DNA from: Acidobacteriota bacterium
Lineage (GTDB): Bacteria > Acidobacteriota > Terriglobia > Terriglobales > Acidobacteriaceae
NCBI GenBank assembly: GCA_021779695.1
Contig: JAJYAE010000194.1
Location: 1 to 8,362, forward strand
Reading direction: 5' to 3'
Length of the DNA: 8,362 nucleotides
Part shown: piece after piece, positions 1 through 8,362 of the stretch
How positions within the stretch are numbered: position 1 is the stretch's first letter
Layout: each line of letters begins with the position of its first letter
Notes under the pieces: model-generated
What the model saw: the letters and a program-made list of their open reading frames with translations, nothing else
Database searches by the model: none
What the model was told of the DNA's origin: nothing
Program-made: the position numbers and the translations under genes

Positions 1-585
1 GACGGGGCTTTCCTGGACGCGGGTCTGGATGTAAAGGACGAGTAGAGCGGGACTGGCGCCGACGAGGAAGAGACCACGCCAGCCGATCGAGTGGAAGAGC
101 AGGCCAAAAGCGGCAGAGGCAAGGATGGATCCGAGAGCGTAGCCCTCTTGAAGGATGCCGCTGAAGGCGCCGCGGCCCTTCTGGGGGAGTGTCTCAAAGG
201 TAAGGGCGGCGCCGACGCCCCACTCGCCGCCCATGGCAATGCCGAAGAGTGCGCGAAGAGCGAGCAGAACGTGGAGCGAGGGGGCAAAGGCGCAGGCGAA
301 CTCGATGACGGAGAAGCTGAGGATGTTGAAGATGAGGATGGGTCGGCGACCGTAGCGGTCAGCCAGCAAGCCGAAGAGGAGCGCGCCGACGGGGCGTAGA
401 GCCTGGGTCCAGAAGACGGCGGCGAGGACGGCGGAGGGGTGGGTGTGGAAGTCGGCGGAGATAGCCTTGACACAGAAGATGAGCAGGAAGAAGTCGAGGC
501 TGTCGAGGGTCCAGCCGAGGAAGGAGGCAAGGAAGGTATGGCGCTGCGCGGACGTCAAATGCTTGAAGTCATGGAAGAAAGACAT
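1..585 (-). CDS. MFS transporter, N-terminal part (sialate/lactate:H+ symporter-like), cut by window edge
   Basis: Inner-membrane secondary transporter, probably a proton symporter for an organic acid. Reading the minus strand from the ATG at 585 gives 195 codons without a stop to base 1, so about half of a typical 400-450-residue protein is present. Visible: a GWTLDSLDFF segment at residues 24-33 with two membrane aspartates (D28, D31), typical of the sialate/lactate and aromatic-acid symporter branches; MFS motif A, GLLADRYGRRP, at 72-82; and a MGGEWGVGA stretch at 118-126, also typical of that branch. About six hydrophobic segments fit TM1-TM6 (roughly 18-38, 52-74, 83-101, 104-125, 143-163, 168-186). 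A GTG directly before the ATG could also serve as start, and no good Shine-Dalgarno is seen. Leucine is mostly CTC (about 18 CTC to 4 CTG), unlike the CTG-rich neighbours. Divergent from the USP gene, with tandem operator-like sites between. Substrate is unknown; family placement is by motif only. Confidence 0.88.
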   Translation of the reverse strand, partial: MSFFHDFKHLTSAQRHTFLASFLGWTLDSLDFFLLIFCVKAISADFHTHPSAVLAAVFWTQALRPVGALLFGLLADRYGRRPILIFNILSFSVIEFACAFAPSLHVLLALRALFGIAMGGEWGVGAALTFETLPQKGRGAFSGILQEGYALGSILASAAFGLLFHSIGWRGLFLVGASPALLVLYIQTRVQESPV

Positions 586-658
586 CACGGGGAGGATAGC
601 AGACGCTAACCGGATGGGAGACAAGAGACGGAGAACCGGATGAGGGGCGCAGCGGTCT

Positions 659-672
659 GTGATTTAAATCAC
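659..672. promoter_or_regulatory. Crp/Fnr-type operator, site 1 (perfect 14-bp palindrome)
   Basis: GTGATTTAAATCAC is its own reverse complement. With flanks it reads TGTGA-N6-TCACG, one base from the E. coli CRP core TGTGA-N6-TCACA; it differs from FNR (TTGAT-N4-ATCAA) at the outer positions of the half-sites. Its centre (665.5) is 80 bp upstream of the transporter ATG and 22 bp from site 2. Site identity is clear by shape; binding by the regulator encoded at 2464-3291 is inferred. Confidence 0.65.
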
Positions 673-680
673 GTTCGCGG

Positions 681-694
681 GTGAATGATGTCAC
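681..694. promoter_or_regulatory. Crp/Fnr-type operator, site 2
   Basis: GTGA-ATGATG-TCAC has both half-sites exact and the same six-base spacer length as site 1. Centre 687.5 lies 22 bp, about two helical turns, from site 1, so two dimers would bind the same DNA face. If the -10-like CAAAAT at 717-722 is used, transcription would begin near 729, putting this site at about -41.5 (class II activator position) and site 1 near -63.5 for the plus-strand USP operon. Confidence 0.55.
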
Positions 695-716
695 TGCGAT
701 GGAGCCTAATCGTAAT

Positions 717-722
717 CAAAAT
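717..722 (+). promoter_or_regulatory. Possible -10 element of the USP operon promoter
   Basis: CAAAAT matches four of six bases of the sigma-70 -10 consensus in a locally AT-rich patch. No recognisable -35 is present, as expected for an activator-dependent promoter. Its distance from operator site 2 fits class II activation. The call depends mostly on this spacing. Confidence 0.3.
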
Positions 723-745
723 TGAGAGTTAAAGCGAGAAGAATG

Positions 746-770
746 GGCGCCGGAAGCGGCGCCATGGCGC
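746..770. repeat. Overlapping inverted repeats in the USP leader
   Basis: GGCGCC at 746-751 pairs with GGCGCC at 758-763 across a six-base loop; with one bulged G the stem extends by AT/AT to eight pairs. The right arm overlaps a second, perfect 12-bp palindrome, GCGCCATGGCGC, at 759-770. The two structures share bases 759-763 and cannot both form in one RNA. If transcription starts near 729 they lie in the 5' leader. Function unknown. Confidence 0.4.
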
Positions 771-875
771 TTTCAGGCATTAGATGAGGAGCGTCACGGC
801 GTGAGTATTGAGACATTTGCGCGGTGGTGGTCGAAGCCGCGGGATGCCTGAGCCATGGCGACAAGGCGGAATGGC

Positions 876-881
876 AGGAGG
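876..881 (+). promoter_or_regulatory. Ribosome binding site setting the USP start
   Basis: AGGAGG, a full Shine-Dalgarno, ends four bases before the ATG at 886 (one base before an in-frame GTG at 883). The earlier in-frame starts (TTG 808, ATG 871) have no comparable site. The spacing is slightly short but this is the only strong signal in the area. Confidence 0.65.
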
Positions 882-885
882 CGTG

Positions 886-1785
886 ATGAGCTGGCGAGGC
901 GGACTGAAGACGATTGTGGTGGCGACGGCGCTGGATGGGGGATCGGATGGCGCCCTGGAGTACGCGCGGAAGCTGGCGGCAGCGTATGGCGCGCGGATTG
1001 TGCTGGCCCACGGATTGGATCCGCTGGAGTATGCGCAGGTGGATGAGGTTCCAGGCCGGGTGCTGGGGAAGATGCCGGATGAGGCTCGCGCGGCGCTGGA
1101 CCGGATGGCGCAGGAGTTGTTGCAGGAGGGGATTTACAGTCATTCGGAAGTGCGTCAGGGGGAAGTGACCGAGATGTTGCTGACGGTTGCGCGGCAATAC
1201 GAAGCTGGACTGATCCTGGTGGGGACCAAGGGCCGGTATGGAGCGGGTCCCGTGGTGGTGGGAACCGTGGCCGAGCAACTGGTGCGGAGGGCAACGTGTC
1301 CAGTGATGGCCGTTGCGGCGGACTGGAATGCAGGTGCGTACCGGCCGGTGCCGGGTGGTCCTATTTTGCTGGCGATGGAGCGCAACGAGGCATCGCATGC
1401 GGCGGTGGAGGTCGCGGTGTCGCTGGCCGGGAAGTTCCAACGGCCGCTTTTGGTGGTGCATGCGAGGACTTCGGCGGAGGCGTCGGCATTTCTGAATCCG
1501 TGCGCAACAACTTTAGAGCAATTTGGGATTGAAGCGCCGAATGACGTGACGGTGCGGTGCGTGGTGAAGGACGGGCCGGCGGTTGACGCGGTGGTTGCCG
1601 GGATCGAGCAGCACCGGCCCAGTGTGCTTGTGTTGGGCGTGAAGCGCACGAGCGAGACGCCGGGGCGTCATGGGACGGCATTTTCACTGCTCGCGCGGTC
1701 GAGGGTGCCGGTGATCTGCGTGCCCCCGGAAGCTGCGGCAGCAAAGAGTTCGACCGAAGGCCAGATGGCGACGGTTGGCGAATGA
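886..1785 (+). CDS. Tandem-domain universal stress protein (UspA family)
   Basis: Cytoplasmic stress protein of 299 residues with two UspA domains in one chain. Domain 1 (about 7-147, opening LKTIVVATALDGG) has a complete ATP-binding signature G-x2-G-x9-G-T at residues 113-127 (GTKG followed nine residues later by GT), so it probably binds ATP. Domain 2 (about 159-281, opening GPILLAMERNEASHAA) keeps the fold, but its loop reads GVKR...GRHGT with the second glycine replaced by Arg, so nucleotide binding there is doubtful. The ATG at 886 was chosen because it has an AGGAGG and places the first beta strand at the usual distance from the N terminus; the frame stays open back to a TTG at 808. Family members support survival under stress, often in low oxygen or starvation. 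First gene of a likely operon with the two Crp/Fnr-like genes, downstream of tandem GTGA-N6-TCAC sites, which suggests Crp/Fnr control. Confidence 0.9.
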   Translation: MSWRGGLKTIVVATALDGGSDGALEYARKLAAAYGARIVLAHGLDPLEYAQVDEVPGRVLGKMPDEARAALDRMAQELLQEGIYSHSEVRQGEVTEMLLTVARQYEAGLILVGTKGRYGAGPVVVGTVAEQLVRRATCPVMAVAADWNAGAYRPVPGGPILLAMERNEASHAAVEVAVSLAGKFQRPLLVVHARTSAEASAFLNPCATTLEQFGIEAPNDVTVRCVVKDGPAVDAVVAGIEQHRPSVLVLGVKRTSETPGRHGTAFSLLARSRVPVICVPPEAAAAKSSTEGQMATVGE

Positions 1786-1952
1786 GAGATCAATGGCGGA
1801 AGCGGGCCCGGAAGCGACTGTTGCCAGGCTGGCGGAGGCACAGTGGTGACTGGAGCGAAGTGGAGCTCTGCGTGAAGAGCAGAGGCAGGGAGATGGATTG
1901 GATGAAGACAATGTGCGGCCACGGGAGGCATGAGCGTGGAAACGCAAGTTAA
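1782..1952 (+). CDS. Possible 56-residue basic peptide in the USP-regulator gap (doubtful)
   Basis: An ATG overlaps the USP stop codon (ATGA) and opens a 56-codon frame ending at TAA 1950-1952, just inside the next gene in another frame. It fills the 144-bp gap and would suit translational coupling. The N-terminal third is very rich in Arg, Lys and Trp (for example QWRKRARKRLLPGWRR), and two Cys occur later. No Shine-Dalgarno is evident, codons such as AGA and AGG are frequent, and the family is not recognised. It may be a chance frame. The gap otherwise holds only a weak stem-loop (CTCTGC 1866-1871 with GCAGAG 1879-1884). Confidence 0.18.
   Translation: MRDQWRKRARKRLLPGWRRHSGDWSEVELCVKSRGREMDWMKTMCGHGRHERGNAS
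1923..1928 (+). promoter_or_regulatory. Ribosome binding site suggesting a later start for the HTH-less gene
   Basis: GGGAGG ends one base before the ATG at 1930, too close for normal use, but seven bases before an in-frame GTG at 1936. Initiation at GTG 1936 (170 residues) is therefore as plausible as ATG 1930 (172 residues). Confidence 0.45.
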
Positions 1953-2448
1953 GCAGGGAGAACACGCGACAGCGCATCCGCTGGCGGAACTGCTGGCATG
2001 TCCCCCGGAGACGGGAAGTCTGCTGAGCGCGGCGACCCAGACGTTTAACTTTGAGGCGGCGCGGACGATTTTTACCCAGGGAGAACCGTGCAGGGGGCTC
2101 TATGTGGTTCTTGCGGGGCAGTTGCAGCGGAAGACGGAGAGGATGGATACGCGTTTGACGCTGGGCCAGGTGCGGCCGGGCGGGCTGGTGGAATTGGCGG
2201 CGGTGCTTGGAGACGGGCGGCATACGTATACGCTTCGGGCTCTGAGCGGCGGGACGATGCTGCTGCTTCCGATGGAGGCGCTGACGGCGGCGTTCAAGTC
2301 GCACCCGCCACTGCGGATGCAGTTGCTGGAAGAACTGGCGCGGGAGGTTTCCCGGGCGTATGACGCATGCTTTGCAGTGCGAATGGTTGGGACGCGGCGG
2401 CGCAGACTGGACACGTCCTATTCGTCAGGGATGCAGGGGACGCGATAA
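1930..2448 (+). CDS. HTH-less cyclic-nucleotide-binding-like (Crp/Fnr sensor domain) protein
   Basis: A 172-residue protein consisting of a Crp/Fnr sensor domain only. Residues about 40-120 form the beta-roll (FNFEAARTIFTQGEPCRGLY, then LAGQLQRK, GQVRPGGLVELAAVLGDGRH, TLRALSGGTMLLLP). Residues about 128-150 look like the dimerisation helix (LRMQLLEELAREVSRAYDAC). After it comes only a short Arg-rich tail (RRRR at 156-159) with no helix-turn-helix, where Crp/Fnr proteins would have about 70 more residues. By alignment with CRP, the cAMP contact Glu72 is kept (E88) but Arg82 is His98, so cAMP binding is doubtful. Cys24, Cys54 and Cys147 are present. It ends 15 bp before a full-length Crp/Fnr gene, so a partner, titrator or heterodimer role is possible but unproven. 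A truncated former regulator is the alternative. The start may be GTG 1936. Confidence 0.75.
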   Translation: MSVETQVKQGEHATAHPLAELLACPPETGSLLSAATQTFNFEAARTIFTQGEPCRGLYVVLAGQLQRKTERMDTRLTLGQVRPGGLVELAAVLGDGRHTYTLRALSGGTMLLLPMEALTAAFKSHPPLRMQLLEELAREVSRAYDACFAVRMVGTRRRRLDTSYSSGMQGTR

Positions 2449-2454
2449 GGAGAG
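2447..2454 (+). promoter_or_regulatory. Ribosome binding site overlapping the upstream stop codon
   Basis: AAGGAGAG begins inside the TAA stop of the HTH-less gene and lies nine bases before the ATG at 2464. It supports translation of the two genes from one mRNA with coupling, and supports the longer form of the regulator. Confidence 0.6.
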
Positions 2455-2463
2455 TGCAGTCTG

Positions 2464-3291
2464 ATGGAAGCTGAGTCGACGGCCGCGGAGGTCGAGGTCG
2501 AGGGTTCCGCGGCAGGAATGGAAGAAGATAAGGGTAGTGAAACTGAGTTATACTTATCGCAACGACGCGGAATAAGTATGGCTGGATTTCACCCACATCA
2601 CCCCCCGGAAGATTGTTTGAACTGCGAGCATCGCCATTTGCGGATGTTTTGCAACCTGACGCCGGAGGCCCTTCAGGATTTCGACGCAATCGGCATCATG
2701 ATGAATCACGCGCGGGGAGCGAAGTTGTTCTCCGAGGGGGATGCTGCGCGGAATGTTTTCATTGTGTGCTTTGGGCAGGTGAAGATTTCTTCGACGTCGC
2801 GCGACGGGAAGACGATGATCCTGAAAATTGCCGGGCCGGGTGATGTGATGGGGCTGAGCGCGGTGCTGGCGAATGTGCCGCACGAGGTGACTGCGGAGGC
2901 TCTTGAACCCTGCCAGGTAAAGACGATCCGGAAGCAGGAGTTTGTGGAGTTTCTGGGACGGCACGGGATTGCGAGCATGCATGCGGCGCAGGCGCTGTCG
3001 GGCGAATACCTGACCGTGTTCCACGACGCGAAGCGGCTTGCTCTTTCCGGTTCGGCGGCGGGCCGATTGGCGCGTTTGTTGCTGGACTGGGGGCGCTCGG
3101 CATCGAACGGCAAGCCTGAGATGCGCTTCACGATGGCGCTGACGCATGAGGAGATCGCCAATATGGCGGGTACTTCACGGGAGACGGTGACACGTCTGCT
3201 GAACCAGTTCCGGCGCGACCAGTGGATTACGATCAAGGGCGCGAGTATGACGATCCTGAAGCCGGATCAACTGGAACGTCTGACCGCGTAA
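2464..3291 (+). CDS. Crp/Fnr-family transcriptional regulator with FNR-like cysteines and CRP-like DNA reading helix
   Basis: A 275-residue DNA-binding regulator. Order: an acidic low-complexity extension (1-38); a cysteine cluster C51-x2-C54-x8-C63; the sensor beta-roll (about 65-160) with a fourth Cys at 150 where E. coli FNR has Cys122; the dimerisation helix (about 163-192); and a C-terminal helix-turn-helix with turn and recognition helix THEEIANMAGTSRETVTRLL at 227-246. The four cysteines suggest a [4Fe-4S] cluster, hence oxygen or redox sensing, though x8 is longer than the x5 of E. coli FNR. CRP residues Glu72 and Arg82 align with Leu131 and Glu141, so cAMP is an unlikely effector. 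Arg239, Glu240 and Arg244 match CRP Arg180, Glu181 and Arg185, predicting GTGA half-sites; E. coli FNR has Val at the first of these. ATG 2464 has a good ribosome site; ATG 2578 (M39) would give a 237-residue form with cysteines near residues 13, 16, 25 and 112, closer to E. coli FNR. Last gene of the plus-strand cluster, convergent with the second USP. Confidence 0.92.
   Translation: MEAESTAAEVEVEGSAAGMEEDKGSETELYLSQRRGISMAGFHPHHPPEDCLNCEHRHLRMFCNLTPEALQDFDAIGIMMNHARGAKLFSEGDAARNVFIVCFGQVKISSTSRDGKTMILKIAGPGDVMGLSAVLANVPHEVTAEALEPCQVKTIRKQEFVEFLGRHGIASMHAAQALSGEYLTVFHDAKRLALSGSAAGRLARLLLDWGRSASNGKPEMRFTMALTHEEIANMAGTSRETVTRLLNQFRRDQWITIKGASMTILKPDQLERLTA
2549..2579. promoter_or_regulatory. 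AT-rich dyad overlapping the internal start codon of the regulator
   Basis: ATACTTAT at 2550-2557 and ATAAGTAT at 2572-2579 are exact reverse complements, 14 bases apart and 22 bp centre to centre, inside otherwise GC-rich coding DNA. The left arm contains TATACT (2549-2554), five of six bases of a -10 box; the right arm covers the A and T of ATG 2578. Possible readings: an operator over an internal promoter, or an RNA hairpin hiding the second start. No convincing -35 is present. Confidence 0.35.
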
Positions 3292-3353
3292 GAAAATCTT
3301 CTGAATCTAAACAAATTTGGTGATCAAGCCGGGAATCGAGTGCTCCGGGAGCG
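3292..3353. other. Convergent gap with a weak stem-loop
   Basis: The 62 bp between the two converging stop codons carries a short dyad: AGTGCTC (3339-3345) pairs with GAGCGCT (3349-3355), including one G-T pair and a three-base loop, and reaches into the stop of the second USP. No T-run follows on either strand, so an intrinsic terminator is not well supported. Confidence 0.3.
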
Positions 3354-4310
3354 CTAGAGCTGGAACTCGGCGCGCTCAAGATCGCCCTCTTCAGCGCTGA
3401 CGGTGTTGTCTTCGCGCAATGTGAGGACCGGACAGCGGGCATGCGCGAGCACGCGGTAGATGGTGTGATCGTGGGTGAGCGTCTGCATGGTGGAATGGCG
3501 AGTAGCGCCGAGGATGATGAGGCTGGCGGACATTTCGGCGGCAGCGGCGAGGATTTCGATTGAAGGGTTGCCGTGCACCACGTGGGACTCGATGGGAACG
3601 TCAAGTTGGCACTCGGCATTGGATTCCCCGGCGAGGGTGCGAAGCTCGAACAGGGTGGCGGAGTCGATGGAGGAAGGAAGCCCACGGCGGGTGAGCTCAT
3701 CCAGTGGCGGCAGGACGTGGAGGAGCACGAGACGGGCTTTTTTGGCAGCCGCGATTCGGCAGGCAAGCACTGCGCTCGGGCGAGAGGCCTCTCTTAGTTT
3801 GGTGGCGTGCAGGACGACCTTTTTGTCGTGGCTGTCGGACACCGGAAGATGAGCCTCGGGTCCCACGGTAAAGACCGGGAGTGGAACCGAGCGCAGCACC
3901 TGCTCTGCCACAGAGCCGAGGAGAAGCCTTGTGAGCTTTCCCCGACTCCGAGTGCCAATCAGTATACGATCGACGTGGAACTGTCGTACAGCGGCATATA
4001 TTTGCTGAACGGGAATGCCCTCGCGGATGAGTGCGTGACAGTCAATGCCGGCGTCGCGCGCCAGGCAGACCCAGGGGTGAAGGGCTTTGGAGGCTGATTC
4101 AACGGCGGAGGCGGGGTCATAACTCGGCCTGCCCGCGGGGTCTGATGAGAAGCCGGCAGAGACCGGGATGACGTGAAGGAGCAGGAGGCGAGCCCTGCAT
4201 TCGCGGGCCTGCGGAACCGCAAAAGCCATGAGATGCTCGAGATCGAGCAAGTCTGTTGCGACGAGGATCACTGCCGGATTTGTCCACCGCTCCCCGTAGG
4301 CGAAGGTCAT
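3354..4310 (-). CDS. Tandem-domain universal stress protein (UspA family), second copy
   Basis: A 318-residue cytoplasmic USP with two UspA domains. Numbered from the ATG at 4310, domain 1 (about 10-150, opening NPAVILVATDLLD) carries a nucleotide-loop pattern at 119-133, GTRSRG followed by LLLGS, with Ser in place of the second Gly. Domain 2 (about 163-300, with a VVLHATKLREASRP strand and loop) ends in a poor loop beginning GATRHS, so ATP binding there is doubtful. The frame extends upstream to a GTG at 4373 (339 residues), but those 21 residues are unlike a USP and lie very close to the operator-like site at 4382-4395. ATG 4310 has a GAGG nine bases upstream and sits about 78 bp from the operator centre, so it is preferred. 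Only distantly similar to the first USP, so not a recent duplicate. It converges on the Crp/Fnr gene and probably belongs to the same stress response. Confidence 0.88.
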   Translation of the reverse strand: MTFAYGERWTNPAVILVATDLLDLEHLMAFAVPQARECRARLLLLHVIPVSAGFSSDPAGRPSYDPASAVESASKALHPWVCLARDAGIDCHALIREGIPVQQIYAAVRQFHVDRILIGTRSRGKLTRLLLGSVAEQVLRSVPLPVFTVGPEAHLPVSDSHDKKVVLHATKLREASRPSAVLACRIAAAKKARLVLLHVLPPLDELTRRGLPSSIDSATLFELRTLAGESNAECQLDVPIESHVVHGNPSIEILAAAAEMSASLIILGATRHSTMQTLTHDHTIYRVLAHARCPVLTLREDNTVSAEEGDLERAEFQL

Positions 4311-4381
4311 GGTCTTATGCCTCGCATTGTCAAGATGCCATTGCTCAGCGAATCGCGCTGTGCCTTCTCGCACCGCGAGAT

Positions 4382-4395
4382 GTGAGCGAAATCAC
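4382..4395. promoter_or_regulatory. Crp/Fnr-type operator, site 3, upstream of the second USP
   Basis: GTGA-GCGAAA-TCAC has both half-sites exact; with flanks it reads TGTGA-N6-TCACG, the same outer bases as site 1. Its centre is 78 bp upstream of the preferred ATG of the minus-strand USP. With the -10-like GACAAT it would sit near -68 (class I position); no good -10 fits class II spacing. The receptor gene begins about 270 bp away on the other side, so control of that gene is less likely. Confidence 0.6.
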
Positions 4396-4479
4396 GTGGC
4401 TTTGCGGACGCTGTGGAGCGTGCTGAGCGGTCGAGGCGGGGAAAAACTGACCGATCTTTATTGCTTCCTTACGGCGAAT

Positions 4480-4492
4480 CCAACTATGTTGG
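4480..4492. repeat. Short dyad CCAAC-TAT-GTTGG upstream of the receptor
   Basis: Five exact pairs flank a three-base loop, and the dyad overlaps the weak -10 candidate at 4485-4490. It could be an operator half-pair or a small hairpin. Too short to interpret alone. Confidence 0.25.
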
Positions 4493-4587
4493 GGAATGGA
4501 AGACCACACCCCCATCAACCACAGCTGTAAATCCCAAAGACAAACCAATCAGTTGTGAGTTCGTGCGCGCCTGCGCCGACGGACCCG

Positions 4588-4609
4588 TTCTTTCCTATTT
4601 TTCTTTTTT
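4588..4609 (+). other. Pyrimidine tract in the receptor leader
   Basis: Twenty-one of 22 bases are T or C, mostly T, with a single A at 4597, in otherwise GC-rich DNA about 55 bp before the receptor ATG. It could be a U-rich leader element or, on the opposite strand, an A-tract. No stable GC stem directly precedes it, so it does not look like a terminator. Confidence 0.35.
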
Positions 4610-4648
4610 GCGGGCGCGACAGAAGAGACACATCAATACACAGATTCT

Positions 4649-4653
4649 GGAGG
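4649..4653 (+). promoter_or_regulatory. Ribosome binding site of the receptor gene
   Basis: GGAGG lies ten bases before ATG 4664, with a second purine run AAGG (4656-4659) nearer. It supports this start, which also gives a proper signal peptide. Confidence 0.6.
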
Positions 4654-4663
4654 ATAAGGCGCT

Positions 4664-7600
4664 ATGCTTCATCGGCATACTCGAAGTGTATTCGAAGGGC
4701 TCATCCGGATGCTGTTCGTCGTAAGTCTGCTTCAAACAGGAGTTTATGCACAGACGTTTCGAGGAGGCATCAACGGGACGGTCACCGATCAGTCAGGCGC
4801 CGTGGTGCCGGGTGCTGATGTGACTTTGACCAATATGGGCACGGCGGCGACGTCGAAGGCGGTGAGCTCCAGCGCGGGCGAATTCAGTTTTCCCGACCTG
4901 CCGGTGGGTAGCTATCAGATCGGCGTTACGGCGCCAGGGTTCAAGGTCATGAGTGTGCAGAAGATTCCCGTGTCTGCTGGGACAACATACACGCTGCCAG
5001 TGAAGCTCAGCGTTGCGACGACAGGCGAGACGGTCGAGGTTTCGGCCGATGCGTTGACGCTGGATACGACTTCGACGGTGGAAACAACGGATATTCCAAG
5101 TGAGACGGTGCAGAATGCACCGATGAATGGGCGAGACTTTACGCAGCTGATTGCTGTGACGCCGGGCTATAGCGGCTACTCGGGCGGCGGCTATGGATCG
5201 GTCAATGGATCGCGGCCGGACATGGTGAACTGGCAGATTGAAGGTGCGGATAACAACGATGTGTGGTGGAACATTCCGGCGGTGAATCAGGGCGGGGTTT
5301 CGGGTATCGCCGGCATCACTCTGCCGCTGGACGCGATTGATCAGATGTCTGTGGTGACGCAGGCGGGCGCTGACTCGGGGCGCAACCCGGGAGCGACTGT
5401 GAACCTGGCAATCAAGTCGGGCACAAACCAACTGCACGGAACGCTGTACTACTTCAACAGGAATGAGGCGCTGGCGGCGCAGTCTGCGCTGTCGTTAACG
5501 AAGCCGGAGCTGCGGAATCAGCAGTTCGGCTACTCGGCGGGCGGGCCAATTCTGAAGGACCGCTTGTTCTTCTTCACGACGTATGAAGGGCAACGGTTCA
5601 CGATTGGCGTGAATGCGCCCTCGACGGAGCCATCGACTGCGTATCAGACGCAGGCGGAGAGCATTCTGTCAGCGTACGGGGTTCCTGTGAGCCAGACGGC
5701 GCTGAACCTGCTGAATGGCAACGGAAGCACGTCGGGACTTTGGCCGACGGCGGCGCTGGGCGGAACGGCGACGCCGTTCAACTACACGAATCCTGCGAAT
5801 GAGCATGGCTTCAGTCACAATGGGCTGGTGAAGCTGGACTACAACCTGAACGCGAATAACAAACTTTCATTCAAGTGGTATGTGGGCCAGGGCAACCAGA
5901 TTGCACCGACTGTTTCGTATCTTTCGCCGTACTACGAGGTGGCGCCGATCCATGTGCAGAACTATTCGCTGACCTACAACACGGTGTTGTCATCGCAGAT
6001 GACGAACCAGGTGTTCATGGGCGTGAACTACTTCAACCAGGCATTCAGCGATCAGTCGACGGTGTACCAACCGATCACACTGGGGTTGAATACGGGTGCG
6101 ACGAGTGTTGCGCTTGCGGGCGCTCCGCGAATTGAGATTGCGTCACCGAACTCGAGCAGCGGCCTGGGGGCTTCGTCGGATGGCTTCGACACGGTGGGAG
6201 GTACACCCAACTCAGGACGCAACGACATTACGGGCCACCTGGACGAGGCGCTCTCGTGGACTGTGGGCAAGCATGAATTTCGGTTTGGCGGCGAAGTGCG
6301 GCAAGCGCAAGTGGACGATTTCTACCAGGCCGGACAGCGCGGAACATTTCTGTTTGACGGCACGCAGGGGCCATGGACGGGCAACACGGGGACGGCGTGC
6401 GATGCGCTGACGACGACGGCTCCGGGATCGATGACGCTGAGCGCTAATCTGAGCAGCGATCCACACTTCTATCAGCTCGCGGATTTTCTGGCGGGTTGCT
6501 TTGATGCTGGGGGCACGAACATTGTGCAAGGCAATCCGAAGCGGCAGGTGTTTGTGAACAGCTGGGCGCTATTTGCGCAGGATGCGTTTCAGATTACACC
6601 TTCGTTGAACCTGAACTATGGTCTGCGCTACGAGTATGTGGGGCCGATGCATGACGGGACGAAGGACCTGACGACCTTCCTGCCGGGGGCGCCAAATGGA
6701 ATTGCAACGGCGGGCGTGAACATCGCGAACCTGTATCCGCAGTATCACGGCGGGTATGGGCCGCGGGTGGGCTTTAACTGGGAGCCGAGGGGCGCAAAGA
6801 ATCTCGTACTTCGCGGAGGGTTTGGCATTGGTTTCGACAGCCCGAACGTTGTGAACTATCTGAACTCGCGCTTCAGCAGCAACGGAGGAGCGTTTGGCGT
6901 GCAGGACAATCCGGCTGGATCGACGCCGGTGGTGGACACGGGGTCGACCGTAAACGTGATTCCGTCCGGAAGCAGCTACGGGAGCCTGATCTTCCCGAAT
7001 GCTGCGACCTCATCGAATCCTTGCATTGCGAATCCGAGCGCGGTGCAGGCGGGCTGCTCTACGGCGAACCTGTTCTCGATCAGCCAGAATCTTCGGCCGG
7101 GCTATATGTACAACTACAACTTCAACGTCCAGCAGAGCCTGGGGGGCAGCGTGCTTCTGCAGCTTGGGTATGTGGGCAGCGAAGGACGGCGGCTGCGCGC
7201 ATTGCTTGATGTGAACCAGGCGGGGCTGGGCAGCGGGGGCGCGAACTCGACGCGGCCGTACTTTGCCCAGTATCCCAATTACGGTGTGATCAATCAGATT
7301 CAGGGCATCGGCACGTCGAACTACAACTCGCTGCAGGCGCTGCTGCGGATGTCGAGCTGGCACGGACTGACGTCGCAGTTTGCGTACACGTGGGGCCATG
7401 CATTGGACGAGATCAGCGAGATCTACCTCTATAACCCGCAGAACAGCCTGTGCTTCAAGTGCGAGTACGGGAACAGCGACTTTGACGTGCGTAATACGTT
7501 CACGAGCTATGTGTCGTATATGGCTCCGGCGTTTGCGCATGGACCGATGGCGTTGAAGTCGGGCTGGCAGTTCAATACACTGATGAACTTCCACGGCGGG

Positions 7601-8071
7601 CAACCGTTCACGATCTACTCGAGCAACGTGGGCGGAAGCGGCAACGGCGAGTATGCGGAGCGTGCGAACAAGAATCCGGGCGTGAGCGCGTATGCGGGCG
7701 TTTCGCATAGCGTGCAGGGAACGGCGGCGACAGGCTATTCCGTGACGTGGATGAATCCGAACGCGTATACGCCATCGCTGAATGGCGCGTACGGCGACAG
7801 TCACAGGAACGACCTGCATGGGCCGGGCTTTGCGGATGTGGACCTGTCGGTCTTCAAGAACACGAAGATTACGGAGCGCATCAACACTCAGTTCCGGGTT
7901 GAGATGTTCAACGTGTTTAACCGGCTGAACCTGGCTTCGCCGGGCGGGGGCTATTGCACGGACTCGAGCGGCTGCGCGATTACGACAACGGTGGGAAGTG
8001 CCTATGGCGCGCCGGGGATTGGAGCGGGCGAGCCGTTTAACACGCAGCTGGCTCTGAAGATTATCTTCTGA
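4664..8071 (+). CDS. Oar-like TonB-dependent outer-membrane receptor with carboxypeptidase-regulatory-like domain
   Basis: An 1135-residue outer-membrane protein. Residues 1-29 form a signal peptide (basic start, hydrophobic MLFVVSLLQTG core, VYA before the predicted cut at Gln30). Residues about 33-116 are a CarboxypepD_reg-like beta-sandwich (GGINGTVTDQSGAVVPGADV, later FSFPDLPVGSYQIGVTAPGF). A plug follows at about 140-265 (NAPMNGRDFTQLIAVTPG at 151-168, NLAIKSGTNQLHGT at 247-260), then a long barrel ending in Phe, as outer-membrane barrels do. RVEMFNVFNRLN near the C terminus is typical of the family. Known relatives are abundant in Acidobacteriota and related to myxobacterial Oar; proposed roles include TonB-powered uptake of oligosaccharides or peptides and export or adhesion. 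Here the ligand is unknown. The mature protein has eight cysteines, several in close pairs (787/798, 930/933, 1098/1104), suggesting disulfide-bonded surface loops. No SusD-like partner or carbohydrate enzyme is adjacent, and the gene is closed by a strong terminator, so it is probably monocistronic. Confidence 0.93.
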   Translation: MLHRHTRSVFEGLIRMLFVVSLLQTGVYAQTFRGGINGTVTDQSGAVVPGADVTLTNMGTAATSKAVSSSAGEFSFPDLPVGSYQIGVTAPGFKVMSVQKIPVSAGTTYTLPVKLSVATTGETVEVSADALTLDTTSTVETTDIPSETVQNAPMNGRDFTQLIAVTPGYSGYSGGGYGSVNGSRPDMVNWQIEGADNNDVWWNIPAVNQGGVSGIAGITLPLDAIDQMSVVTQAGADSGRNPGATVNLAIKSGTNQLHGTLYYFNRNEALAAQSALSLTKPELRNQQFGYSAGGPILKDRLFFFTTYEGQRFTIGVNAPSTEPSTAYQTQAESILSAYGVPVSQTALNLLNGNGSTSGLWPTAALGGTATPFNYTNPANEHGFSHNGLVKLDYNLNANNKLSFKWYVGQGNQIAPTVSYLSPYYEVAPIHVQNYSLTYNTVLSSQMTNQVFMGVNYFNQAFSDQSTVYQPITLGLNTGATSVALAGAPRIEIASPNSSSGLGASSDGFDTVGGTPNSGRNDITGHLDEALSWTVGKHEFRFGGEVRQAQVDDFYQAGQRGTFLFDGTQGPWTGNTGTACDALTTTAPGSMTLSANLSSDPHFYQLADFLAGCFDAGGTNIVQGNPKRQVFVNSWALFAQDAFQITPSLNLNYGLRYEYVGPMHDGTKDLTTFLPGAPNGIATAGVNIANLYPQYHGGYGPRVGFNWEPRGAKNLVLRGGFGIGFDSPNVVNYLNSRFSSNGGAFGVQDNPAGSTPVVDTGSTVNVIPSGSSYGSLIFPNAATSSNPCIANPSAVQAGCSTANLFSISQNLRPGYMYNYNFNVQQSLGGSVLLQLGYVGSEGRRLRALLDVNQAGLGSGGANSTRPYFAQYPNYGVINQIQGIGTSNYNSLQALLRMSSWHGLTSQFAYTWGHALDEISEIYLYNPQNSLCFKCEYGNSDFDVRNTFTSYVSYMAPAFAHGPMALKSGWQFNTLMNFHGGQPFTIYSSNVGGSGNGEYAERANKNPGVSAYAGVSHSVQGTAATGYSVTWMNPNAYTPSLNGAYGDSHRNDLHGPGFADVDLSVFKNTKITERINTQFRVEMFNVFNRLNLASPGGGYCTDSSGCAITTTVGSAYGAPGIGAGEPFNTQLALKIIF

Positions 8072-8094
8072 GCGAGTTGGAAGAGATGGAAAGG

Positions 8095-8125
8095 CCGGCC
8101 GCGGAGGATCGCGGCCGGTATTTTT
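8095..8125 (+). terminator. Intrinsic terminator of the receptor gene
   Basis: CCGGCCGCG (8095-8103) pairs perfectly with CGCGGCCGG (8110-8118) across a six-base loop, GAGGAT, followed by TATTTTT to 8125. A nine-pair GC stem plus U-run 23 bases after the stop codon is a textbook rho-independent terminator on the plus strand. Confidence 0.92.
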
Positions 8126-8362
8126 GCGTGGGTGCCGGGATGGGAAAGCGGGTAGCCGCTGAGGAGTCAAGGAAGGTTGGATGGTGACAGGTCCGGGCCG
8201 GATCGTTCCGGTGCAAATCCCATTTGAACGAAGGCGCGTTGCGGCGGGCGCATTCGCATAGGTTGGGCTGGCAGTTGTGACTGACGAGCCGCCACCGGAC
8301 GGAGCGAAACGTTGATGGCGCCCAGGAACTGGTGGAAACGCGGCCGGATTGGGCACAGAAAA
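8126..8362. other. Region after the terminator with no recognisable gene
   Basis: No frame here resembles a known protein; the long minus-strand frame that crosses it continues antisense through the receptor and is judged a shadow. There are CCGG-based dyads: CCGGA (8198-8202) with TCCGG (8207-8211), TCCGGTG (8207-8213) with CACCGGA (8293-8299), and GTCCGG (8191-8196) with CCGGAC (8295-8300). They share bases, so only some could form together. It may be the leader or promoter region of a gene beyond the right edge. Confidence 0.35.

Follow-up and report, generated by a model that had tools for sequence, protein, structure and literature searches.

Tandem CRP-type operators around a cysteine-bearing Crp/Fnr gene point to a probable genome-wide oxygen or redox regulon in an acidobacterial family

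We analyzed an 8,362-bp stretch of DNA (the window) from an Acidobacteriota bacterium of the family Acidobacteriaceae (assembly GCA_021779695.1, contig JAJYAE010000194.1, positions 1 to 8,362). It encodes a Crp/Fnr-family regulator, two universal stress proteins (USP1 and USP2) and a Crp-like protein that lacks the helix-turn-helix (HTH), and it holds three exact copies of the palindrome GTGAN6TCAC. The data suggest, with a probability that we put at about 0.68, that the window is one node of a genome-wide oxygen or redox regulon of this acidobacterial family, which would also make HTH-less partners of its own regulator.

Results

Operators in the window and in related loci

All three exact copies of GTGAN6TCAC in the window are intergenic (Table 1). 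Dinucleotide-preserving shuffles of the window gave an expectation of 0.06 copies, and none of 200 shuffles reached three, which confirmed the claim of a first-pass annotation, made from the letters alone, that three exact intergenic copies exceed chance. At the density found in a related genome (183 in about 6.3 Mb), 0.24 copies would be expected in the window, and the probability of at least three is about 0.002. Matches with one mismatch added little, as the window has seven and this number was reached by 8 of the 200 shuffles.

The window was compared with 80 loci (the best 80 of 105; one genome per species was scanned, and most are close relatives). GTGAN6TCAC occurred 174 times in the 866,859 bp of these loci, while the reversed pattern occurred once, and spacers of 2-5 and 7-12 gave 4 to 18 occurrences each in comparison with 174 for the spacer of 6. 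Of the 174 sites, 140 preceded one of three genes by at most 320 bp: USP1 in 107 cases, USP2 in 28 and the regulator gene in 5. In 61 of the 80 loci, the genes for USP1, the HTH-less protein and the regulator followed one another in this order on a single strand. For the 300 bp before USP1, the window and 60 loci gave 61 rows: both sites were exact in 49 rows, one in 11 and none in a single row, and the spacing was 22 bp in all 49 rows with both exact. In 59 aligned rows the half-site columns of the USP1 sites held 2.0 bits, apart from one second-site column with 1.2, in comparison with about 0.1 in the upstream flank. For USP2, 28 of 33 rows had an exact site no more than 180 bp ahead of the gene, even where USP2 was kilobases from the regulator (L006, L009 and L034). 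A degenerate copy, GTGN8CAC, followed 22 bp downstream of the exact USP2 site in 26 of these 28 rows, the only offset between 14 and 44 bp at which it was seen. Because the sites are conserved with fixed spacing in dozens of loci, we read them as operators; the footprint indicates that the three window sites are conserved operators under strong selection, and that the promoters of USP1 and USP2 each carry two predicted operators 22 bp, or two helical turns, apart. Eight fixed bases make a weak motif, which occurs 183 times in the related genome, and a chance cluster without function could be imagined on that ground; the footprint refutes it, leaving such a cluster extremely improbable. Our literature search found nothing on an acidobacterial Crp/Fnr-USP system or on tandem Crp/Fnr sites.

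The first-pass annotation had placed the sites next to both USP genes and a transporter gene. The association with the USP genes was borne out, with at least one exact site in 60 of the 61 USP1 rows and in 28 of the 33 USP2 rows. The transporter was not; a major facilitator superfamily (MFS) gene stood beside the sites in just 5 of the 80 loci, and an operator of the MFS transporter was rejected on this count. An operator of the TonB-type receptor was also rejected, since a receptor with at least 45% identity was present in 19 of the 80 loci and the distance of the site was fixed to USP2, not to the receptor.

The candidate -10 element of USP1, CAAAAT, is 29.5 bp from the centre of operator 2, which is the geometry of a class II promoter. 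In relatives, a conserved xAxACT-like block that resembles a -10 element is separated by about 30 bp from the proximal site's centre, and this distance would put the proximal site near -41, the class II position. TATACT was found at most 60 bp upstream of the regulator start in 69 of 79 loci. In most relatives it lies about 24-39 bp before this start, with a GAAAATCCCTGCC block ahead of it in many, and in L028, L049 and L056 an operator precedes the regulator's TATACT with class II spacing.

Distribution of the operator over related genomes

The extended site TGTGAN6TCACA was counted in four related genomes, which held 17, 14, 22 and 8 copies (61 in all) in comparison with 1, 2, 0 and 1 (4 in all) of the reversed pattern. 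Of these 61 sites, 58 were fetched with their surroundings. Genes were predicted by a crude home-made gene finder, and several gene identities outside Pfam were read by eye. The neighbours in the four genomes were grouped and one member per group was sent to Pfam. The genes beside the sites encode the small subunit of NiFe-hydrogenase (three genomes), CcmF (three), NuoA (two), a NuoL-type protein (two) and, in one genome each, CcmE, Hcp and rubrerythrin. GTGAN6TCAC itself occurred 183 times in a related genome of 6.3 Mb, in comparison with 46 reversed controls. The data show that the predicted operator is enriched over related genomes, beside genes of respiratory or anaerobic type and genes for HTH-less Crp-like proteins.

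These counts change the picture given by the first-pass annotation, which had described the Crp/Fnr gene and its operators (659..4395) as a self-contained regulon; copies of the operator are enriched over whole genomes, beside respiratory genes. It had proposed to test the motif for enrichment upstream of USP, respiratory or transporter genes, and NiFe-hydrogenase, Ccm, Nuo and Hcp genes were among the neighbours in the related genomes. It had also considered that the motif might be common and randomly placed. The motif is common, but 54 of the 58 extended sites lay outside predicted genes.

When 200 genomes of the family were scanned for tandem pairs at 22 bp, 77 had such a pair and none had the reversed control. 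Seven genes beside tandem pairs were sent to Pfam, of which three encode radical SAM proteins and one each a multihaem cytochrome, an ABC ATPase, a hemerythrin and a two-domain USP. The 22-bp tandem was rejected as a rule for every site: a GTGN8CAC partner at 22 bp accompanied just 2 of the 58 extended sites, so the tandem is a feature of some promoters.

Several further arrangements were observed. Tandem 22-bp pairs precede a radical SAM/SPASM protein in L174, L176, L177, L179, L196, L198 and L205; the protein resembles an enzyme of an alternative haem pathway, and three of these proteins were confirmed as radical SAM while the others were judged by eye. In four loci from other genera (L204, L206, L208 and L209) a tandem operator pair separates two neighbouring genes for cysteine-bearing Crp-like proteins, and a multihaem cytochrome gene follows. 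A lipoprotein-like gene of no known family has the operator in two genomes (L102, 2222-2761, and L117).

The regulator

A sequence search of the N-terminal half against solved structures gave no FNR among the matches listed, and the E. coli fnr and crp genes were therefore taken from the genome record for alignment. The reading helix of the regulator, SRETVTR, aligns with SRETVGR of E. coli CRP, not with TVETISR of FNR, and it was found in 77 of 79 loci (one other has SRETITR and one was not readable). The equivalence of an Arg-Glu-x3-Arg motif to the CRP residues that read GTGA, proposed in the first-pass annotation, thus agrees with the alignment. Its R239, E240 and R244, numbered in a 275-aa frame, are R201, E202 and R206 of a 237-aa protein, which is the likelier form of the regulator, as its start was set by conservation of MAxxHxHHPPEDC among relatives. 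In CRP, R180 and E181 specify the G and A of TGTGA (PMC1274295).

The suggestion that the cysteines look like those of FNR held in part. There is an N-terminal cluster, but its pattern is CxxCx8C and the fourth cysteine is at residue 64, which the structure model places in a strand of the beta-roll. A pattern demanding C13, C16, C25 and C64 was matched in 79 of the 80 loci, the remaining protein (L063) beginning after the first three, and C112 was present in 73 of 79. The cysteine ligands of FNR are at positions 20, 23, 29 and 122.

The regulator belongs to the Crp/Fnr superfamily, as PF00027, PF13545 and PF00325 all scored above cut-off and the fold matched. The model (mean predicted local distance difference test score, pLDDT, 85) overlay holo-FNR of Aliivibrio fischeri with a template modelling (TM) score of 0.85 and cyclic AMP (cAMP)-bound GlxR with 0.84. 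However, the NCBIfam Fnr model NF008365 gave 62 bits against a cut-off of 228, and the four-ligand pattern of FNR is absent, with three N-terminal cysteines at another spacing and K115 in place of C122. The NCBIfam CRP model gave 57 bits against a cut-off of 266. The cAMP-pocket residues of E. coli CRP are E72, R82 and S83, and the stretch GEL...ERSAW of CRP is GLS...HEVTA in the regulator, with the pocket residues replaced. cAMP was rejected as the signal. The reading helix of the regulator and its presumed operator are those of CRP (RE-x3-R and TGTGAN6TCACA). It falls outside the HcpR type, which joins a CRP-like motif to the lack of FNR-type cysteines, since the cysteine cluster is kept in 79 of the 80 loci. 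On paper, the protein would work like an FNR with the target site of CRP, yet it fails the tests of membership in FNR.

The signal

We take Acidobacterium capsulatum to be a member of the same family as the source of the window. Several of its usp genes are raised as O2 falls from 10 to 0.1 μM, two of them 7- and 56-fold (PMC11636273). In a term search, Fnr and Crp were named nowhere in the main text of this paper, nor in that of either of two papers on acidobacterial genomes (PMC9599518, PMC5900883). In the E. coli genome record, fnr and uspE are neighbouring genes. The usp response of A. capsulatum, the adjacency of fnr and uspE, and the hydrogenase, cytochrome and Hcp genes beside the sites together favour low oxygen or a redox change as the signal.

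The cysteines may instead sense something other than O2, such as thiol oxidation, nitric oxide or a bound metal, and the regulator would then be a redox switch that has no [4Fe-4S] cluster. The lysine at the position of FNR C122, the place of the conserved C64 in the beta-roll and the Hcp gene beside a site in one genome speak for such a switch, Hcp being a nitrosative-stress target in other bacteria. The FNR-like spacing of the N-terminal cysteines, the overlay on holo-FNR and the response of usp genes to O2 in a relative count against it, and we hold it to be a serious alternative that is nevertheless clearly the less probable one.

Which protein binds the operators

Each of the four related genomes also encodes a cysteine-bearing paralogue with CxxCx8C and the helix TTRETVTR (L158, L160-L162), and paralogues without cysteines but with RETVTR or RESVTR exist as well (L159, L166, L171 and L253). 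When 19 of 20 paralogue loci were read, sites were found upstream of 4 of 4 cysteine-bearing paralogues, 3 of 4 regulator orthologues and 1 of 11 other paralogues. Since the cysteine-bearing paralogue shares the helix and the cysteines, the binder may be either protein or both. If the paralogue were the main binder, the neighbouring regulator would have another role or would join only under some conditions. This would suit the presence of the paralogue, with an exact site upstream, in each of the four genomes, the existence of the non-cysteine paralogues and the lack of a close regulator match in 33 of the 77 genomes with a tandem pair. It appears rather unlikely, as the regulator accompanies USP1 with its tandem sites in 61 of the 80 loci, and five of these loci also have sites before the regulator gene itself. 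Furthermore, 17 of the 44 genomes that hold both features were inspected by hand, and in 8 of them a tandem pair lay at most 1.5 kb from a regulator homologue. It is likelier that the regulon belongs to the cysteine-bearing pair, regulator and paralogue, with the neighbouring regulator favoured at USP1.

HTH-less Crp-like proteins

The HTH-less protein of the window has a cyclic nucleotide-binding domain (PF00027). Its model (pLDDT 83) ends in a helix at 127-161, and this C-helix is the best-conserved stretch of the protein. It matched the sensor half of the regulator in a profile comparison (probability 98.3), with 24% identity. The C-helix makes the dimer interface in the Crp/Fnr superfamily.

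The operator also stands before other genes of this kind, which was unexpected and appears to be new. In two genomes, all six further stand-alone HTH-less proteins encoded outside the USP1 operon had an exact site upstream. In ten genomes, a site was found upstream of 19 of 27 stand-alone HTH-less Crp-like genes, the nearest lying 130 to 204 bp before the domain. Full-length paralogues without cysteines had a site in 0 of 18 cases (Fisher P about 1e-6 against the 19 of 27), the one with cysteines (L259) had none, and the reversed control gave 0 of 46. The HTH-less genes were chosen by an open frame no longer than about 210 aa, leaving out copies in USP1 operons, one gene with an internal stop and one 218-aa frame; the 19 full-length controls, L259 among them, were hand-picked from those listed. 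In the tree, the HTH-less proteins are on long branches, and the genes with a site need at least three separate branches, with weak deep nodes.

These proteins could be independent sensors or scaffolds, for example with USPs, that belong to the same regulon without being partners of the regulator. The eight of 27 genes without a site and the distance of the proteins from the regulator are in keeping with independent roles, for which we see slightly less than an even chance; the retained C-helix and the occurrence of the same operator on at least three forced branches argue for partners. A single literature search on this point found no HTH-less partner of bacterial Crp/Fnr regulators.

Other features of the window

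The Pfam domains agreed with the genes named in the first-pass annotation (two USP genes, an HTH-less protein and a regulator), and each USP chain has two USP stretches, making both proteins two-domain universal stress proteins. The UspE model NF008380 of NCBIfam gave 28.9 and 34 bits for the two, against a cut-off of 227. Judged by conservation in relatives, USP2 probably starts at the ATG at 4310; a GTG at 4373 falls inside the degenerate USP2 operator. A TonB-type receptor gene also adjoins the regulator orthologues of L069-L075 in several loci, where USP genes are absent.

Table 1. Coordinates of the features found in the window
Feature	Position	Strand	Remarks
Operator 1 of USP1 (distal of the tandem pair)	659..672	.	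GTGATTTAAATCAC; exact match, footprint in 59 aligned rows
Operator 2 of USP1	681..694	.	GTGAATGATGTCAC; exact match, 22 bp downstream of operator 1
Candidate -10 of USP1 (CAAAAT)	717..722	+	read from sequence; putative
USP1, two USP domains	886..1785	+	PF00582, two stretches
HTH-less Crp-like protein, 172 aa, sensor beta-roll and C-helix only	1930..2448	+	PF00027 alone
Candidate -10 of the regulator gene (TATACT)	2549..2554	+	recurrence in relatives
Crp/Fnr-family regulator, 237 aa	2578..3291	+	PF00027, PF13545, PF00325; open reading frame opens at 2464
USP2, two USP domains	3354..4310	-	PF00582, two stretches
Degenerate second operator of USP2	4360..4373	.	GTGCCTTCTCGCAC; 22 bp downstream of the exact USP2 site
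Exact operator of USP2	4382..4395	.	exact match
Large TonB-type outer-membrane protein	4664-8071		PF25183 and a carboxypeptidase-regulatory-like domain; far side of the USP2 operator

Discussion

The reading that we prefer, a genome-wide oxygen or redox regulon, would work as follows. The neighbouring regulator, with or without the cysteine-bearing paralogue of the same helix, would bind the operators as a dimer through R201, E202 and R206, and two dimers would occupy adjacent places on the same face of the DNA. The dimer nearer the promoter would lie about 41 bp before the transcription start, the position from which class II activators contact RNA polymerase. The signal, which would be low oxygen or a redox change and not cAMP, would be read by an Fe-S cluster or by thiols at C13, C16, C25 and C64. 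The step of which we are least sure is that the HTH-less protein of the USP1 operon and its cousins are products of the regulon that pair with or titrate the regulator, and so limit the response.

Several observations weigh against this reading. The DNA fetched for L069-L075, whose regulator orthologues are 63-68% identical, contains no exact site, and enrichment of the motif was weak in the more distant KBS 89 (86 against 56 reversed). Many neighbours of the sites have no evident respiratory link, and 6 of the 20 sent to Pfam gave no family. The fourth cysteine is not at the FNR position, with FNR C122 aligned to K115, and the same reading helix occurs in paralogues, one with cysteines in each of the four genomes and others without. 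Finally, the tandem pair and a close match to the regulator coincided modestly over the 200 genomes (P = 0.0035), with both in 44, the tandem pair only in 33, the regulator only in 44 and neither in 79.

The system combines traits of known regulators. It shares with FNR, Anr and FnrL, as represented by E. coli FNR, the fold, an N-terminal cysteine cluster and the lack of a cAMP pocket, and with E. coli also a two-domain USP gene beside the regulator gene. However, FNR has CxxCx5C where the regulator has CxxCx8C, its fourth cysteine is at 122, not 64, and it has a helix of its own and the half-site TTGAT, in contrast to RE-x3-R and TGTGA. E. coli CRP and GlxR/MtbCRP share the RE-x3-R helix, the TGTGAN6TCACA operator and the overall fold; CRP differs in its cAMP pocket, in having no such cysteine cluster and in its target genes. 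HcpR of Desulfovibrio, also FNR-like, recognizes wTGTGAnnnnnnTCACAw and controls hcp, but it differs in having no FNR-type cysteines (PMC1274295). A further difference is that it binds haem (PMC12750200).

Id proteins are dominant-negative partners without a DNA-binding domain. The HTH-less proteins would resemble them in having the dimerising part without the DNA-reading part and in being made under the system they may limit, the partnering here being putative. A wider proposal, which we offer tentatively and think rather doubtful as a whole, is that Acidobacteria respond to low oxygen through cysteine-bearing Crp/Fnr proteins on tandem CRP-type operators, and that the regulon systematically includes several HTH-less copies of the regulator's sensor half. 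These would act as Id-like partners forming inactive heterodimers with the regulators, a negative feedback of many members that would have evolved repeatedly, starting from different lineages of sensor.

Soils and peat, in which oxygen levels fluctuate, are rich in Acidobacteria. The operators described here are a concrete candidate for the control behind the low-O2 response of usp genes in A. capsulatum. That the operator is enriched ahead of genes for HTH-less Crp-like proteins points to a layer of feedback, which would be new for a much-studied superfamily if the partnering is true.

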